A stretch of 36,189 bases of DNA, from positions 1 through 36,189 of the forward strand of contig JANJSZ010000137.1 in assembly GCA_024711405.1 (NCBI GenBank), in the 5' to 3' direction. This DNA comes from Acidovorax sp. GTDB lineage: Bacteria > Pseudomonadota > Gammaproteobacteria > Burkholderiales > Burkholderiaceae_C. This document shows positions 3,789 to 26,369 of this stretch, one piece after another (within the stretch, counting starts at the first letter, position 1; each line of letters starts with the position of its first letter). Made by a program: the position numbers and the translations under genes. The notes under the pieces are model-generated. The model was not told the DNA's origin, did not search any database, and worked only from the letters and a program-made list of their open reading frames with translations.

Positions 3789-3965
3789 TCCCCCTGAGCG
3801 ACCTCGCGCCTCGGTGCCGCCGCCAGAGGCGGCAGCTCTTCAGGCACGTCCAAGCTTGCGCAGGCAGGCTTGGAGTCGCGGCCCTCAGCCTCCAGGGGGA
3901 CGACGCCCTCGCTGCGGGGCGGCCCTTGCCTGGCGTCCCTGGCCAGCGCTGCGCAAGTTTTCGCC
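3789..3965 (+). repeat. Interspersed intergenic repeat, family A, long form
   Basis: CCCCCTGAGCGACCTCGCG...GCAGGCTTGGAGTCGCGGCCCTCAG...GGGGGACGACGCCCTCGCTGCGGGGCGGCCCTTGCCTGGCGTCCCTGGCC...; clearly homologous to 2580-2785. Confidence 0.8.
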
Positions 3966-4163: not shown

Positions 4164-6296
<2,133 letters not shown>

Positions 6297-12816: not shown

Positions 12817-13824
12817 TCAGCGCGCCGCTGGGGGCGCAGCGGTCGCGCCTGCGCTGTCAAAAGCGCCGCGTTCGCGCCACAGCGTGGTGACGGTGGTGCC
12901 CTGGCGCATCACCAGCGAGCGTTCTTCCACCACGCTGGTGCCCAGGCGCAGGCGCCCGCGCACCTCGAAGTAGCGCGAGGCGATGGCATGGTCATCGGCG
13001 TTCAGCGCAATGCTGGCGCCCAGCTGGTCGGAGACATCGGTCAACGCCCGGAAATGGCGCGCCTGCCGGGCCTGCACCAGCTTTTGCGCGTCCGCCATGT
13101 CCAGCCCGTCGATCGCGGCCGACAGCACATCCACGTCGGCCGTGTTCAGGTTCACCGGGGTGCGCATCGGCAACAGCGTGACATGCGGCGCCAGCACGGT
13201 CAGTGTGGCGGGGGGCAGGCCCAGCCAGCCCAGCTGGGCCGGGGTCGGCGGCAGCAGGGGGGCGCTGCTGTTGGCGCCCTGGCTGGCTTTGGCTTCGCGC
13301 AGGCCCTGCACGAGCAGGCTCAGTTGCTGCGCAGGCAGGCCCAGGCGCTCGAACAGGCGAGAAAACTGGCGCAAGGAGCCCGCGTTGACCTTGTCGCCAT
13401 CGACCAGGTTGGTCAGGTTCAGCCGCCCCTGCAGGTCGGTGATCTGGCCGGACAGAAAGGCGTCGGTGGTGTCGGTGCTGGCGTCGTCCACCTGGGTCAT
13501 GTTGCGGTCGGCCGCCAGAAAGGTGGACAGGCGCGCCTCCTGCAGCGGCACGGCCCAGGGTTCGGCCAGGTGGTCGGCACCGCCGGTGATGCCGTCCTCG
13601 CGCAGGATCAGGCGCGACCAGTCGAGCGCGCCCACCAGAATCCAGGCCGACTGCAGCCGGGCGCGCTCAGCCGTCTCGACCTCGACCGCACGCCACTGCT
13701 GCCACAGGGCAGCGGCGGCAAAGGTGGCCACCAGCGTTACCGTGAGCATGGCCGCCAGCAGGGCCGCACCGCGCTGGCGGGCGGGGCCTGCAGTGCTTTG
13801 CAAAGGGGTGGTGCGGTGCCTCAT
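12817..13824 (-). CDS. gspK: Type II secretion minor pseudopilin GspK
   Basis: RQRGAALLAAMLTVTLVATFAAAALWQQWRAVEVE, WILVGALDWSRLIL, DLQGRLNLTNLV; start taken at MRHRTTPLQ. Confidence 0.93.
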   Translation of the reverse strand: MRHRTTPLQSTAGPARQRGAALLAAMLTVTLVATFAAAALWQQWRAVEVETAERARLQSAWILVGALDWSRLILREDGITGGADHLAEPWAVPLQEARLSTFLAADRNMTQVDDASTDTTDAFLSGQITDLQGRLNLTNLVDGDKVNAGSLRQFSRLFERLGLPAQQLSLLVQGLREAKASQGANSSAPLLPPTPAQLGWLGLPPATLTVLAPHVTLLPMRTPVNLNTADVDVLSAAIDGLDMADAQKLVQARQARHFRALTDVSDQLGASIALNADDHAIASRYFEVRGRLRLGTSVVEERSLVMRQGTTVTTLWRERGAFDSAGATAAPPAAR

Positions 13825-14669
13825 GACTTGCCGCCACCCAGCACCGGGTTGACCCAATCGCGCGTGATCTGCCCGGCCAGCGCCTGGCCCGGGCGGATGG
13901 TGATCTGCAGGCGCACGCCATCGGGCAGCGCAGCGTTGGCCTCGCCGGGCGTCGTGTTGCTGCTGGACTGCGGGTTCGACCAGGCGCCGCCGCGGTAAAA
14001 ATAGATTTGCCAGTTGTCCAGTGGCAGCAACACCACTTCTCTGCGCCGTTCGGCTTCGTTGGGATTACCGGCCCACTGGGCGGCCTGCTGCCAGGCCTGT
14101 TGCCAGTCGGCATGGGTGCGCACCGGGGGCGATTGCCAGCGCAGCCAATGGCTGGCGCCCCGCACGTCGCGCCGGGTCCAGGCCACCACCAGGGCGCCTT
14201 CGTCGGGCACGGCGCTGCTGCGCCGCGTCATGCGCAACACCTGGCCGTCCCAGTTCAGCGGCGTGGTGTAGGGCACGGACACGATGGCGTCCAGATCCGC
14301 GCCCCACTGCGCAAGCGCAGCCTGCACCACCAGCAGTTCATCGGCCCGCTGGCGTGTCGTCTCTTGCGCCCGCGCCATGCCGTCCAGCCCGCGCCACCCC
14401 AGGATGGCCATCAGCGCCATGATGGCAATGGCCACCAGCAGCTCGATCAGGGTGAAGCCGCGCGGCGACGATGCGCCGTGCAGCAGCGTGGGGACTATCA
14501 GCCCGCCGCCCGGCCGCCCGAAGGCGGGTTGGGCCCCCTCGGGGGGCAGCGAGCGACACGCAGTGCGCGACCGTGGGGGCCTTGTCAACCCGCCGCCCGG
14601 CCGCCCGAAGGCGGGTTGGGCCCCCTCGGGGGGCAGCGTCGACACGCAGTGCGGGAGCGTGGGGGTCAT
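13821..14669 (-). CDS. gspJ: Type II secretion minor pseudopilin GspJ, with repeat-derived N-terminal leader
   Basis: SSPRG/FTLIELLVAIAIMALMAILGWRGLDGMARA prepilin motif; ATG at 14669 arranged TGAAATG with the gspI stop. Confidence 0.9.
   Translation of the reverse strand: MTPTLPHCVSTLPPEGAQPAFGRPGGGLTRPPRSRTACRSLPPEGAQPAFGRPGGGLIVPTLLHGASSPRGFTLIELLVAIAIMALMAILGWRGLDGMARAQETTRQRADELLVVQAALAQWGADLDAIVSVPYTTPLNWDGQVLRMTRRSSAVPDEGALVVAWTRRDVRGASHWLRWQSPPVRTHADWQQAWQQAAQWAGNPNEAERRREVVLLPLDNWQIYFYRGGAWSNPQSSSNTTPGEANAALPDGVRLQITIRPGQALAGQITRDWVNPVLGGGKS
14502..14669 (-). repeat. Tandem direct repeat (family E, two units, period 87 bp) inside gspJ leader
   Basis: CCCGCCGCCCGGCCGCCCGAAGGCGGGTTGGGCCCCCTCGGGGGGCAGCG occurs at 14502 and 14589, followed by GACACGCAGTGCG...GTGGGGG in both. 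Confidence 0.93.
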
Positions 14670-14670
14670 T

Positions 14671-15030
14671 TCAATATCTACCCACGATGGTGGACAGGCG
14701 CAGTACCGAGTTCTCGCCATCGAACACCTGCGCATCCACGCGCCGAAAACTCGGATTGGGCGTGGGCCGCACGATCACGGCCACATCGAAGCGTCGCCCC
14801 GCCTGCTCGCAGGGCTGGGTGCTGTCGCCCACCCCCGGCATCTGGCGCGACAGGCGGGCCTTGACCAGTTCGTTCTCGGCGCAGAGCTGGGCCAGCACGA
14901 TGTCCGATTGCCGCAACGCATTGCGCGTCAGCGCCGTGGTGGCCTGCAGGCCCGCCAGAAGGGCAATGGCCACAATGGCCAGCGCCACCAGCACCTCGAC
15001 CAGGGTAAAGCCCTGTTCTGGCGTTTTCAT
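14671..15030 (-). CDS. gspI: Type II secretion minor pseudopilin GspI
   Basis: MKTPEQG/FTLVEVLVALAIVAIALLAGLQATTALTRNA. Confidence 0.93.
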   Translation of the reverse strand: MKTPEQGFTLVEVLVALAIVAIALLAGLQATTALTRNALRQSDIVLAQLCAENELVKARLSRQMPGVGDSTQPCEQAGRRFDVAVIVRPTPNPSFRRVDAQVFDGENSVLRLSTIVGRY

Positions 15031-15554
15031 GGCAGTGGCTCCACCGCGAAAGGCCGCAGGCCGTCGGTGGCCACGCGCAGCGTGCGTTCGGGGTGGGCCT
15101 GGTGGGCCAGCAGCACCTGCTGCGGCCCGATCAGCGGCTCGGGCCCCAGTTGCAGGGTGGCGGGGCCGCGCACCGTGGTGCCGGCATCCAGCCACTGGGT
15201 GGGAAGCGTGCCGGCGGGCAGGCCCTCGAACCGGAAACCCTGCGCATCGGCGCGCCAGCGTACCGGCACGCCCGTGCCGCGCGACTGGGCCCGGCCCGAT
15301 TCCAGCAGGGCCGCCAGCCGTGCCGCTTCGCGTTCCAGCTGCGTCTGTCCGCCGTCGCGCAGCGCCAGGCTGACGCCCGCCGTGGCCAACGCCATGATGC
15401 TGATGACCACCAGCAATTCAAGGAGGGTAAAGCCCCCCTGAGCCGCTACGCGGCTTCCCCCCTCTCTCGCGCTGCGCGCGGGAAGGGGGACGACGCCAGT
15501 GGCCTGGCAAAGCCAGTTCCACGGCGTCCCTGGCCGGGGGCGCGCCAGTTTCAT
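15027..15554 (-). CDS. gspH: Type II secretion minor pseudopilin GspH, with repeat-derived start codon and leader
   Basis: AAQGG/FTLLELLVVISIMALATAGVSLALRDG; only in-frame ATG upstream of the prepilin motif is at 15554 within a family A repeat. Confidence 0.88.
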   Translation of the reverse strand: MKLARPRPGTPWNWLCQATGVVPLPARSAREGGSRVAAQGGFTLLELLVVISIMALATAGVSLALRDGGQTQLEREAARLAALLESGRAQSRGTGVPVRWRADAQGFRFEGLPAGTLPTQWLDAGTTVRGPATLQLGPEPLIGPQQVLLAHQAHPERTLRVATDGLRPFAVEPLP

Positions 15555-15556
15555 GG
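15433..15556 (+). repeat. Interspersed repeat, family A, short form, overlapping gspH 5' end
   Basis: CCCCCCTGAGCCGCTACGCGGCTTCCCCCCTCTCTCGCGCTGCGCGCGGGAAGGGGGACGACGCC...GGCGTCCCTGGCC...GCGCCAGTTTCATGGGCC, aligns to 1023-1147. Confidence 0.85.
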
Positions 15557-15585
15557 GCCTGGGATGCGTGGGGAAAGAAGGCGGG

Positions 15586-16050
15586 TCACTGCCAGCTGCC
15601 GATATCCGCGTCCTTGCCCTCGCCGCCCGACTGGCCGTCGGCGCCGAACGACATCACGTCGATCTCGCCCTTGATGCCGGGGTTCAGGTACTGGTAAGGG
15701 CGCCCCCAGGGGTCGTTGGGCAGCTTTTCGAGGTAAGGTTTCCAGTTGCCGGGGATGGGGCCGGCCGTGGGCTTGGCGACCAGCGCCTGCAGGCCCTGTT
15801 CGGCCGTGGGGTAGCGCTGGTTGTCCAGGCGGTACAGCTTGAGCGCCTGCATCACGTTGGTGACGTCGGTGCGGGCGGCGGTGCCGCGCGCGTCGTCGGC
15901 GCGGTCGAGCACGTTGGGCACGATCAGCGCGGCCAGCACGCCGATGATGACCAGCACCACCATCAGCTCGATCAGGGTGAAGCCCCGCGCAAGGTGCGTG
16001 GCCAGGCGGCTGCGGGCGGGGCGCAGGGGGAGGGCGGAGGATTTGTTCAC
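15586..16050 (-). CDS. gspG: Type II secretion major pseudopilin GspG
   Basis: LARG/FTLIELMVVLVIIGVLAALIVPNVLDRADDARGTAARTDVTNVMQALKLYRLDNQRYPTAEQGLQALV...; GTG start at 16050 (VNKSSALPL). Confidence 0.95.
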   Translation of the reverse strand: MNKSSALPLRPARSRLATHLARGFTLIELMVVLVIIGVLAALIVPNVLDRADDARGTAARTDVTNVMQALKLYRLDNQRYPTAEQGLQALVAKPTAGPIPGNWKPYLEKLPNDPWGRPYQYLNPGIKGEIDVMSFGADGQSGGEGKDADIGSWQ

Positions 16051-21158: not shown

Positions 21159-21643
21159 GGCAAATCTCTTGGAAGAAAAATTGGCGGTGGCGGGTACGGA
21201 ATATGCTTTTACAAATCCACTTCCCGGTTGCGCACTGGGGGTCAATGCGACGAAGTGTTGCAACGTTCCGGGGGTGTTGCAAGGATGCCCGAGGAGAATG
21301 CGACAGTTGTTACAGACAGAAGGGGTTGTCTTGGGGTAATTGGCGATGGTTTCTGTGGTGGCTGCCGCCAATGAGGGGCTGCATGGCGACATTTTTTGTC
21401 GCTCCAGGGAGTATGGGCATGGCGCCATGTTGCGCAGGGCTTCTGCGATGAAGATGAATTGTTGCAATGCCGCAACGAAATTGACCCTGTGCGGTGATTT
21501 CCTTTGCGCAACCGCGCCCCGTCTGGTGCAATAACACCAACTTCCCCACCAGGAGGTTGGCCCGGGGAACCGGTGGGACTGTGCTGGCGCTGCGCCCCAG
21601 ACCTCCGAACCGGTGCCCATGTTTAACCTTGGAGTAACTCGCA

Positions 21644-22678
21644 ATGAAAAAATCCCTGATTGCCCTGGCTGTGCTGGCTGCTTCCGGCGCCGCAATGGCC
21701 CAATCTTCCGTGACCCTGTTCGGTATCGTTGACACGGCCGTCGGCTATGTGGACCACGCCAACGCAGCTGGCGACAGCGTGTATGGCCTGACCACCAGCG
21801 GCAATGCCACCAGCCGCATCGGCTTCCGCGGTGTGGAAGACCTGGGCGGTGGCCTGAAGGCCGGTTTCTGGCTCGAAGGCGAACTCTTCGGTGACGTCGG
21901 CAACTCTTCCGGCCTCGACTTCAAGCGCCGTTCTACCGTCAGCCTGATGGGCAACTTCGGTGAAGTCCGCCTGGGCCGTGAACTGGTTGCTGGCTACAGC
22001 AAGACCAGCAGCTACGATCTGTTCAACCAAGCCGGTATCGGCCAGTTCATGGGCTGGGGCGCCTGGGATGAAACGGTTGCCGATGCCAACGGTATCCGTA
22101 AGAACAACCTGATCAGCTACTACACCCCCAACTTCAGCGGCTTCACCGGTGGCATCAGCTACGGTTTTGACGAGCAAACCACCGGCAAGGCTGGCCGCTA
22201 CGTTGGTGGCAATGTGGCCTATGACAACGGTCCTCTGAGCGTGGCCCTGTCGTTTGACCGTGCCAACCTGACCAGCACCGTTGAGCGCGACAAGCTGACC
22301 CTGGGTGGTTCTTACAACTTTGGCGTTGCCAAGGCCATCGCCATCCTCCAGCAGACCAAGGATGACCGTGGTGCCCTGGCCGAGCGCAAGGTGAACGCAT
22401 ACGCTCTGGGCGTGTCGGCTCCTGTGGGCGCTGGTGAAGTCAAGCTGCAATACGCTCTGTACGACCAGAAGGCCATCGACTCCAAGGCCCACCAGATCAG
22501 CCTGGGCTATGTCCACAACCTGTCCAAGCGCACGGCTGTGTACGGCACGGTGGCATTCATGGACAACAAGGATGTTTCCAACATGGGCCTGTCTGTCAAG
22601 GGTCTGAGCAACGCCGGAGCCCCTGGCGCTGGCGAAAGCCAGACCGGCGTGCAAGTCGGTATCCGCCACGCTTTCTGA
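21644..22678 (+). CDS. Gram-negative porin (copy 1)
   Basis: [43 protein letters not shown]..., C-terminal VGIRHAF beta-barrel signature. Confidence 0.95.
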
Positions 22679-22719
22679 TGAGTTGCTGGCCTTGCGCCAG
22701 CATTCACGAAGCTGATAAA

Positions 22720-22749
22720 GCCACTCGTCGCAAGACGGGTGGCTTTTTT
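22720..22749 (+). terminator. Rho-independent terminator after porin copy 1
   Basis: GCCACTCGTC-GCAA-GACGGGTGGC-TTTTTT. Confidence 0.92.
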
Positions 22750-22753
22750 CATG

Positions 22754-23130
22754 GTGCGCCCAGCATGGGCGCACACCTGTGGGTGCAAGTGCCGCTGGGA
22801 GCTGGGCACGGTGAGTGACCTGAAGCGCAACTGCGTGAGGGCGACCGAGCATTGTGAACGCGAATGCGAGCGCAATCGGGGCAGGCACAGCGCGGGGTGA
22901 GGCGGTGTGCCCCAGCCAGTGACGAAGCCTGCGGTCCGCTCCATGAACACCGGGGCACGGGGTCGGCAAAGTGGATCGCAGGCACAGGCCGCTTGCAGGG
23001 GGTGGTGCTGACGAGATAGAGCCTGTTACAGCATGGATGCGGGGCAAGGCCAACAAAGTCGCAGCCGGGGTGGACGGTCCCGACATCGAGCAAACGGCCC
23101 AAGTCATCATCGCCCCGGTGCTGTTGGCCG
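22754..23130 (+). pseudogene. Decayed group II intron: 5' ribozyme-like segment plus RT/maturase N-terminal remnant
   Basis: Starts GTGCGCCCAGCATGGGCGC...GGTGCAAGT (GUGYG 5' end); reading frame WMRGKANKVAAGVDGPDIEQTAQ resembles the RT N-terminal 'A/VRANKGAAGVDGxxIEQT' region; no intact RT follows. Confidence 0.72.
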
Positions 23131-23753
23131 GACGCCATGTGTGGGGCTGGGGGATGTGGTTTGGACTGGCGCAAACACCAAGTTGCGTCTTCTTTGGTGG
23201 GCTGCGCGGTAGGAAAGTCGATCGGTTGATGGGTGATCGTCGGAAATTCAGGACATTTTGTTTCATTTTTGAGACAGTGTTTTGTTTTTGCCCTGAGAAT
23301 TTTGGTGTTGTGTTGCGTTCACTGAACACTTGTTTGAATCAATCGCAACAGAAAAATGATGAAAACAATTGGGTGACACAAGAGTAAAAAGTGTATTTTG
23401 TGTTGAAAAAACAACTGAATTCATGGTTTTTTTTGCATTTTTCATGGCCCTGTCGTTCATTTTTTTGCGCGACACGATTTTTGGTGTTGCGCAATGGGAA
23501 AAGGGGAAACGGGTAAACCCGAATAGGTGCCAGCAAGGGGTCATTGGTTGAATAGAGGCATTGCTTCGGTCCCGAGAGGCAGACGCCAATGCTCACTTTT
23601 CTGGTGGGGAAGTCTGCGAGAAGTTTGTTTTTCGGGGTTCTGAGGCAATAGCGTCCATCAAGGAACCTGTTTCCTGGAGCGGCTGGGTTGGGGTAAGGCG
23701 GTACCCGGGCCCAACCAAAACGAAGTCCCCTGTTCAATTCTGGAGTGTTCTCA

Positions 23754-24815
23754 ATGAAAAAATCCCTGATCGCCCTTGCCGTGCTGGCAGCCTCTGGTGC
23801 CGCAATGGCCCAGTCTTCCGTGACCCTGTTCGGTATCGTTGACACGGCCGTCGGCTACGTGGACCACGCCAATGCAGCTGGCGACAGCGTGTACGGCCTG
23901 ACCACCAGCGGCAACGCCACCAGCCGCCTCGGCTTCCGTGGCGTGGAAGACCTGGGCGGTGGCCTGAAGGCCGGTTTCTGGCTCGAAGGCGAAATCACCG
24001 GTGACAACGGCAATGCTGCTGGCTTCAACTTCCAGCGCCGTTCCACGGTAAGCCTGATGGGCGGTTTCGGTGAAGTCCGCATGGGTCGTGAACTGACCCC
24101 CGGCTACAGCAAGACCGCCCTTTATGACCTGTTCGGCCAAGTCGGTGTCGGTCACTTCATGGGCTGGACCGGCAACTGGTACGGCACGGGTGGTGACTCC
24201 GGCAACGGCGTTCGTTCGAACAACATGATCAGCTACTACACCCCCAACTTCAGTGGTTTCACCGCTGGTCTGGGTTATGGCTTTGACGAGCAGACGACTG
24301 GCAAGGGTGGCCGTTACATTGGTGGTTACGTTGCCTATGACAACGGCCCTCTGAGCGTGGCTGCGTCGTACGACGAGCGCAGTGTGGGTGCTGTTACGAG
24401 CCCCGCCCCGATTGCTGCCTTTGACCGCAATTCCCTGACTTTGGCTGGCTCATACAACCTGAAGGTTGCGAAGCTGATTGCCATCCTGCAACGCACCGAA
24501 GACGACCGTCCAGGTCTGAGTGATCGCAAGGTGAACGCATACGCTCTGGGCGTGTCGGCTCCCGTGGGCGCTGGCGAAGTCAAGCTGCAATACGCTCTGT
24601 ACGACCAGAAGGCCACCGACTCCAAGGCCCACCACATCAGCCTGGGCTATGTCCACAACCTGTCCAAGCGCACGGCTGTGTACGGCACGGTGGCATTCAT
24701 GGACAACAAGGATGCTTCCAACATGGGTCTGACTGCCAAGAACCTGAACACCGGCGGCCCCGGCGCTGGTGAAAGCCAGACCGGCGTGCAAGTCGGTATC
24801 CGCCACGCTTTCTGA
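23754..24815 (+). CDS. Gram-negative porin (copy 2, close paralogue of copy 1)
   Basis: [43 protein letters not shown] identical N-terminus; near-identical C-terminal third; differing internal segments. Confidence 0.95.
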   Translation: MKKSLIALAVLAASGAAMAQSSVTLFGIVDTAVGYVDHANAAGDSVYGLTTSGNATSRLGFRGVEDLGGGLKAGFWLEGEITGDNGNAAGFNFQRRSTVSLMGGFGEVRMGRELTPGYSKTALYDLFGQVGVGHFMGWTGNWYGTGGDSGNGVRSNNMISYYTPNFSGFTAGLGYGFDEQTTGKGGRYIGGYVAYDNGPLSVAASYDERSVGAVTSPAPIAAFDRNSLTLAGSYNLKVAKLIAILQRTEDDRPGLSDRKVNAYALGVSAPVGAGEVKLQYALYDQKATDSKAHHISLGYVHNLSKRTAVYGTVAFMDNKDASNMGLTAKNLNTGGPGAGESQTGVQVGIRHAF

Positions 24816-24856
24816 TGAATTGCTGGCCGGGTGCCAGCATTCACGAAGCTGATAAA

Positions 24857-24886
24857 GCCACCCGTCGCAAGACGGGTGGCTTTTTT
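24857..24886 (+). terminator. Rho-independent terminator after porin copy 2
   Basis: GCCACCCGTC-GCAA-GACGGGTGGC-TTTTTT, near-identical to 22720-22749. Confidence 0.92.
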
Positions 24887-25036
24887 CATGGGGGCATGTT
24901 TCTTTCTTGTGCTTTGTGAGTTACCGGCCGGTTATTGCGATCCACTTGCGCTTCTCTGCAAGTGGCCCGGCAAGCGGAGCCGCAAAGTCACCCGCGCTCG
25001 TGCCAGACCGGGGTGATACATGATTTTTAAATAAGT

Positions 25037-25048
25037 GAACGATCGTTC
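25037..25048. promoter_or_regulatory. Perfect palindrome GAACGATCGTTC upstream of third porin (TetR-type operator candidate)
   Basis: 12-bp perfect palindrome 107 bp upstream of the porin ATG. Confidence 0.5.
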
Positions 25049-25154
25049 TATTAGGGAAAGCCTGTGTAAGCATTACGCCACAAGCACTTACGAACGGGCG
25101 TGCCTTTACTACACTCAATCGGCATCCCCTCAACCACGGAAAGAGACGCGACCC

Positions 25155-26369
25155 ATGAAAAAAACCGATATCAAGAAGCTGTTCGCTTTCGGGGCCGTTG
25201 CCCTGGCTTCGAGCTTCGCTTGCGCGCAGACCGCCAGCGCCCCCGCGAGCAGCGTGCAGTTGTACGGCATCGTTGATGTGGCCTATCGCCATACCACCAA
25301 CGAAGGTCCGGCCACCGACCGAGGCCAGTCGCTGGACCAGATGATTGGTGGCGGCATGTCGCAAAGCCGCCTGGGTATCAATGTCACCGAGGATCTGGGC
25401 GGCGGATTGAAGGCGATCGCCAATCTGGAGCACCGCTTTCTCGCCGACAGCGGCACCGTGGCCGCCGCCAATTATTTCCAGCAGTCCTGGGTGGGCCTGC
25501 AGAGCAGCAGCCTGGGTCGCCTGACCGTGGGCCGCCAGTACAACATGCTGTTCGACCTGGTGACCACGACCTACGCCTCCTTTCCCTATTCGCCGTACAT
25601 GGAGGCATACAAGCCCGAATTGGGCATGTCCATGGGCTCGCGTGCCAACAACATGATCAAGTACATGGCCGAGGTCGGAGCGATCCGCGGCTCGCTGCAG
25701 TATTCTTTCGATGAAGGCAGCACGGTTGACAGGATGGGCGCGGCTGCGGTCAGCACCGGCGCCATCCGGACGGCTGGCGGTTACCTGCGTTATTCAGCCG
25801 ATGGTCTTTCTGCCGGCCTGGGCTACCTGAACACCAGATTGCCGGGCGGCACCAAGGTGGATGCCTGGACCTTGGGTGGTTCGTACCGTTCCGGCCCGCT
25901 GTATGTGAACCTGGGCTACGCGGAGAACAAGCGCAAGGGCAACTATCCGCTGAGCGTGGCCGGCGTGATCGATAGCGCCGTCCTCGGTGCCTTCTGGATG
26001 AGCCCTTCAAGTGGCGGCTTTGTGCCAGGCGCCACGGCAGACCCGAGCAGGCCCGCTACCGTGGTGGGTCTGGTCAACCACGCCAACAAGCGTGAGATGT
26101 TCAAGGTGGGCTTTGGCTACCAGATCACGCCGCAGATCAATGGGGGCGTGCATTACTACCATGCCAAGCAGTCCGGCTCGGCTTCGGGTGTTTACAACGG
26201 CAAGGCCAACTTCCTGGTGGCTGCCGTGGATTACGCATTCTCCAAGCGCACGGATGCCTATTTCGCTGTGGACCATACCCGCGTCAGCGGCGGTGACGGC
26301 ATGGCGCTGGCTGCCAACGGTGCCCGTACGCGCACAGGCGTCACCGCAGGCCTGCGCCATCGCTTCTAA
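25155..26369 (+). CDS. Gram-negative porin (third, divergent)
   Basis: MKKTDIKKLFAFGAVALASSFACAQTASAPASSVQLYGIVDVAYRH..., C-terminal GVTAGLRHRF; ATG at 25155. Confidence 0.94.
   Translation: MKKTDIKKLFAFGAVALASSFACAQTASAPASSVQLYGIVDVAYRHTTNEGPATDRGQSLDQMIGGGMSQSRLGINVTEDLGGGLKAIANLEHRFLADSGTVAAANYFQQSWVGLQSSSLGRLTVGRQYNMLFDLVTTTYASFPYSPYMEAYKPELGMSMGSRANNMIKYMAEVGAIRGSLQYSFDEGSTVDRMGAAAVSTGAIRTAGGYLRYSADGLSAGLGYLNTRLPGGTKVDAWTLGGSYRSGPLYVNLGYAENKRKGNYPLSVAGVIDSAVLGAFWMSPSSGGFVPGATADPSRPATVVGLVNHANKREMFKVGFGYQITPQINGGVHYYHAKQSGSASGVYNGKANFLVAAVDYAFSKRTDAYFAVDHTRVSGGDGMALAANGARTRTGVTAGLRHRF

Follow-up and report, generated by a model that had tools for sequence, protein, structure and literature searches.

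A dispersed repeat as the probable source of the start codon and leader peptide of gspH in Acidovorax, with repeat-built leaders likely also in gspJ

The gspH gene found in a 36,189 nt stretch of Acidovorax sp. DNA (the window; contig JANJSZ010000137.1), part of a draft genome with a completeness of 82%, raises the question of where its start codon and leader peptide came from. The T2SS operon lies on the minus strand of the window in the order gspG, gspH, gspI, gspJ, gspK, gspL. The gspG gene for the major pseudopilin (coordinates 15586–16050; GTG start; TIGR01710, 187 bits) is followed by gspH for a minor pseudopilin (15027–15554; 175 aa counted from the repeat-derived ATG described below), by gspI with a short native leader, MKTPEQG (14671–15030; TIGR01707, 57.9 bits; T2SSI), and by gspJ (13821–14669; TIGR01711, 54.2 bits from residue 70). 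GspH matched TIGR01708 with 61.9 bits (E 7e-17), which is under the 80-bit equivalog cut-off, and the name was therefore assigned from the best-scoring model together with the G-H-I-J gene order, gspG being identified by TIGR01710 upstream and gspI by TIGR01707 downstream. A class III signal (G/FTLLEL) with a hydrophobic helix was found by PF07963 (N_methyl; residues 38–61; 28 bits, cut-off 21.2) and TIGR02532 (26.7 bits, cut-off 16.3). As the TIGR01708 alignment begins at residue 39, everything N-terminal of that residue is extra relative to the GspH family.

The gspH frame on the minus strand translates as MKLARPRPGTPWNWLCQATGVVPLPARSAREGGSRVAAQGG followed by FTLLELLVV, and from this translation and the N_methyl match the prepilin peptidase cleavage site is predicted at Gly41/Phe42 (15429–15434). 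A reading of the sequence alone (the sequence-only reading) had proposed that the frame 5' of the prepilin motif is the antisense strand of an interspersed repeat, family A, and this was confirmed. The segment 15433–15556 had 39 matches within its own genome (E<=0.001), and alignment with 49 dispersed full-length copies, from which the family A consensus was derived, placed an antisense repeat at 15434–15554 (minus strand) that encodes the gspH start codon and leader, making up the first ~40 codons of the gene (15433–15554). The final leader codon, Gly41 (15432–15434), sits at the joint between repeat and gene, and the repeat stops at residues -2/-1 of the cleavage site; its end position is known to +/- 1 base because the joint falls in a run of six C.

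Three further copies in the window, all on the plus strand and identified by repeat comparison within it, were found to lie between genes, as had been claimed: one upstream of ftsZ (1023–1147), and two of the long form, between ftsZ and lpxC (2580–2785) and downstream of lpxC (3789–3965). All 13 Acidovorax genomes searched also matched 15433–15556, with at least 7 to at least 42 matches each among those scored, and the copies are many, alike and mostly intergenic. As the segment belongs to a dispersed family, it is not ancestral to gspH, a finding on which the sequence-only reading had depended.

The family A consensus begins ACCCCCTGAGCCGCTTCGCGGCTTCCCCC and contains GCGCCAGTTTCA(T). It starts CCCCCTGAG and exceeds 120 nt, and so does not belong to the GTAG/CGTC REP superfamily of 20–40 bp palindromes with a GTAG/CGTC tag. 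Terminal inverted ends, a MITE trait, were not seen in it by eye, and no Rfam family reached the gathering score over 14490–15560. The only Rfam matches in the window were elsewhere, namely a TPP riboswitch (RF00059; 4206–4325, plus strand) upstream of a 657-aa ORF at 4323, and the Betaproteobacteria toxic small RNA RF02278 (19808–19870, minus strand).

The gspH ATG (15552–15554, minus strand) is the complement of the CAT in the repeat, and none of its columns varies among 18 Acidovorax leaders. The repeat end, CAGTTTCAT, provides the sole in-frame ATG, GTG or TTG from the gspG end to the prepilin motif, and the earlier statement that there is no other holds for that stretch. Weaker similarity among dispersed copies extends ~20–45 nt beyond the CAT, placing the ATG inside the repeat, and CAT is the commonest triplet at that consensus position, but it is present in only 13 of the 49 dispersed copies. 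The frames of these copies are evenly spread (15/20/14, with the gspH-compatible frame in 15), and an ATG, an open frame and a compatible frame are combined in only four. The 31 nt that separate the gspG stop from the ATG (15555–15585, minus strand) show weak similarity to the sequence past the CAT in dispersed copies and probably represent what is left, after decay, of the outer end of this repeat. There is no strong Shine-Dalgarno sequence upstream of the ATG in the window. Other dispersed copies were also considered as antisense starts of genes; long ORFs exit many of them and none was convincing, as these ORFs, judged by their GC-rich DNA and their position opposite annotated-looking genes rather than by comparison with protein families, resemble chance open frames.

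To establish how general the arrangement is, 47 gspG-gspH junctions were taken from 46 Acidovorax genomes (48 searched; the mixed bin G006 gave two), and repeat A was found to form the gspH leader in 18. The ATG is kept in 18 of these 18 and the frame is open in 17, and the gspG stop lies 28 or 31 nt from the ATG in every one. Measured from the ATG to the Gly-Gly codons, these leaders span 96, 99, 105, 117, 132, 171 or 183 nt, each divisible by three; G021 (L045), at 170 nt, is the sole out-of-frame exception. Of the eight distinct lengths, seven are thus in frame (p=0.0026 against an expectation of 1/3), a value that is only a guide as the species share ancestry and the counts are not independent, for which the use of distinct lengths corrects in part. 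Mature GspH is intact in G021 and the leader is shifted by one base in the G run at the joint, possibly reflecting an assembly error or a slippage-prone site. Many of the other junctions have a leader of six or seven residues right before the motif (MNRSRG, MNHSRG, MTRRPRG), often preceded by copies of a second repeat, family B, and some have a short gspG-gspH gap free of repeats, similar to that of the outgroups Simplicispira and Giesbergeria (14 and 22 nt). This contrast between junctions with and without the repeat supports the suggestion that the leader peptide was born from a repeat.

It could also be argued that the repeat is untranslated and that GspH starts either at a non-canonical codon near the motif or further upstream, at a codon that overlaps gspG. 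In many Comamonadaceae (e.g. L070, L072 and L074) only a short gap separates gspG from gspH and an in-frame ATG overlaps gspG, some species such as G028 and G066 retain an upstream in-frame ATG of this kind, and it has been cautioned that N-terminal REPs may be non-coding, with translation beginning downstream (PMC3733652). Judging from the closest outgroups and from several further Comamonadaceae, the ancestral gspH start probably overlapped the gspG end. However, the codon of this ancestral type in the window is ACG, leaving only the repeat ATG, and no ATG, GTG or TTG follows it before the motif. A start overlapping gspG would translate the repeat anyway, and an untranslated repeat would not require retention of the frame and the ATG in 17 to 18 of 18 junctions. 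This explanation is therefore unlikely, and we infer that the ATG at 15552–15554 is the start in vivo and that the long leader is cleaved off.

Selection on the two parts of the protein differs, with a pN/pS of 0.54–0.92 in the gspH leader versus 0.20–0.26 in mature GspH. The leader amino acids are near-neutral or weakly constrained and the mature protein is constrained, in agreement with the earlier proposal that an invading sequence would cost the mature pseudopilin little. Weak constraint on the leader is the pattern that a translated and then discarded segment should show.

The sequence-only reading, although borne out for gspH, did not notice that the leader of gspJ, also in the window, is built from repeats. 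The gspJ ATG directly follows the gspI stop, and a 71-residue leader (MTPTLPHC...GASSPRG, then FTLIELLVA) holds two family B units on the minus strand. The unit at 14498–14551, which reads LPPEGAQPAFGRPGGGL, is 98% identical to that at 14585–14638, located by repeat comparison and translation 87 nt (29 codons) away. Family B is also dispersed, with 19 matches in the genome. In the close relative G062, the gspJ leader has ~19 residues and no B units.

Across Acidovorax, 42 of 45 gspJ junctions have an ATG between 1 nt before and 10 nt after the gspI end that is motif-compatible and open. Of the 34 junctions with a leader of >=90 nt, 31 combine a compatible frame with the absence of stops; 18 of 21 distinct lengths among the long leaders are in frame (p=1e-6), and the other two frames of the 34 contain stops in 28 and 18. 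Many of the long leaders consist of repeat A on the sense strand (MPPLSRFAPSPREGDAPGGLAEPVPR..., or in another frame ...ALRAFPPLSHCCAMRAGGRR...) or of tandem repeat B, and that of G027 reaches 200 codons. The exceptions, which are G021 for gspH and G033, G063 and G031 for gspJ, may reflect either errors of assembly or genuine losses; the gspJ leader of G063 has a one-base frame break. Tandem peptide repeats upstream of the motif that are unlike families A and B by eye were seen in gspJ of G002 (L179), with the unit AAARRSPEHLRLRLRYERLR, and in gspH of L106, with a QRGNAI-type unit.

An alternative is that the repeats are kept for an RNA role, as intercistronic hairpins tuning gspH and gspJ expression, with coding incidental or secondary. 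The repeat segment at gspH folds strongly on the transcribed strand (-80 kcal/mol, z -2.3), and gspJ leaders of the MPPLSRFAPSP type vary little at every codon position. However, an RNA role alone leaves the frame preserved across 21 gspJ and eight gspH lengths unexplained, and the occurrence of two families, in both orientations and at very different lengths, at one position speaks against a specific RNA element. As the whole explanation it is very unlikely, though an RNA role can coexist with repeats serving as leaders. Purifying selection on the residues of the gspJ MPPLSR-group leaders was not found (pN/pS 1.4). In seven genomes (G023, G010, G018, G015, G014, G068 and G025) the repeat A leader of gspJ is near-invariant at every codon position (pS 0.05), against a difference of 0.34 at the synonymous sites of mature gspJ. 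Possible causes of this near-invariance are homogenisation among copies, a recent spread and RNA constraint.

Both of the deep lineages of Acidovorax on the operon tree contain gspH repeat leaders, interspersed with replacements. Sister pairs differ, G025 having the repeat and G035 lacking it, and G018 and G004 having it and G061 lacking it. The distribution requires 10 changes on this tree (shuffles: mean 14.9, minimum 10), and leader and operon distances are correlated (rho 0.47). The common joint and orientation suggest that there was a single, old insertion at gspH, which would have been followed by exchange or replacement of segments between species or between copies. The gspH leader of G010 resembles those of the distant G034 and G021, and the G028 group carries a different repeat subtype with ~18 extra nt at the joint before the motif, making recombination or a second insertion likely; a second insertion event in the G028 group is possible. 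The presence of the repeat in both lineages, and also in a small number of further genera, could be read as an ancestral gspH leader from which the dispersed repeats were derived. This is scarcely credible, as there are many dispersed copies, which are situated between unrelated genes and continue past the coding part, and the closest outgroups, Simplicispira and Giesbergeria, lack the repeat at gspH.

Strong family A matches were found in 10 of 121 genomes drawn from the bacterial family, representing 9 of 120 genera, and the comparison was extended to seven genera outside Acidovorax that possess gspH as well as family A. In-frame gspH leaders with an ATG where the CAT of the repeat lies were found at L254 (G072), L255 (G144) and L251 (G082), and these leaders of three other genera look repeat-A-derived. 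The L251 leader, which is more diverged, and part of the L255 leader were recognised by eye; a short repeat library gave no family A match for either, and the genome search did match L255. L251 and L255 also have gspJ leaders that resemble a repeat, of the MPPL type. The repeat is out of frame at gspH in G075, where mature gspH is frameshifted too. At L087, in Polaromonas eurypsychrophila, a family B-like repeat contains an ATG and continues into gspH without a change of frame. Among the prepilin-motif loci examined in three genomes, repeat leaders were found in gspH and gspJ only. Type IV pilus minor pilins were rejected as further cases, as the short B/A1 matches at L242 and L237 were upstream of the leader or chance-like.

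Taken over both genes, sequence comparison makes it very probable that the start codon and leader of gspH are derived from a repeat and that gspJ leaders are likewise derived from repeats A and B. A dispersed hairpin-forming family A repeat would have inserted, reversed, between gspG and gspH, its antisense strand by chance reading ATG AAA CTG GCG ... without a stop and joining gspH at the Gly before the cleavage site, so that the repeat ATG and open frame could become the translation start and entire leader of pre-GspH. Prepilin peptidase would then cut off everything before Phe42; since the leader is removed, its residues would be almost free to drift and only the start and frame must stay. 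A like process, with repeat A on the sense strand and with tandem repeat B, would have occurred in gspJ. Tolerance of a discarded leader would be the reason for retention. It is doubtful that the leaders of GspH and GspJ are a general landing site at which unrelated mobile hairpin repeats repeatedly become translated leaders, with the structured, length-variable leader mRNA and the G run at its joint tuning or switching minor pseudopilin amounts.

In-frame repeat insertion is already known. Rickettsia RPEs are dispersed, lie in frame in protein genes and are translated, some at the N-termini of expressed proteins (PMC3733652). The gspH and gspJ repeats are similarly in-frame insertions in ORFs, but probably differ from RPEs in sequence and are found in another host. 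They also differ in that two genes of one operon have been invaded repeatedly, that a start codon is supplied in gspH, and that prepilin peptidase is expected to cut the translated insert away. REPs (GTAG/CGTC) are short hairpin repeats near or inside genes, at N-termini more than C-termini, and many N-terminal cases are regarded in that study as untranslated (PMC3733652). Unlike these, family A is ~120–165 nt with a consensus lacking an initial GTAG or CGTC, and frame conservation at gspH and gspJ argues for translation. The BRE of Bordetella and Comamonadaceae, including Acidovorax, is ~90 bp, GC-rich, often tandem and sometimes within ORFs (PMC3110155); family B, with its tandem 87 nt unit, resembles it by description rather than by sequence comparison, but leader peptides are not described in that paper. 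Leader length is known to vary in type 4 filament prepilins and can be very long (T4b pilins, S. sanguinis; PMC10191384), and no description of repeat-derived minor-pseudopilin leaders of 34–200 residues was found in the literature searched. What appears to be new is the use of prepilin leaders as recurrent landing sites.

The two genes would offer a natural example of intergenic repeats becoming the start codon and/or leader of GspH and GspJ with the frame intact across many species, and so of a route from a non-coding repeat to translated sequence, even to a start codon, that is tolerated since the product is expected to be discarded. With the pattern replicated in two genes and several genera, the birth of a leader peptide can be put to the test. 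A further prediction is that GspH and GspJ starts may be misannotated, and that prepilin peptidase accepts leaders of 40–200 residues, far longer than those of the MNRSRG type.

Elsewhere in the window, three consecutive Porin_4 porin genes were found at 21639–26369, the first two of which share DNA segments that are 81–93% identical.
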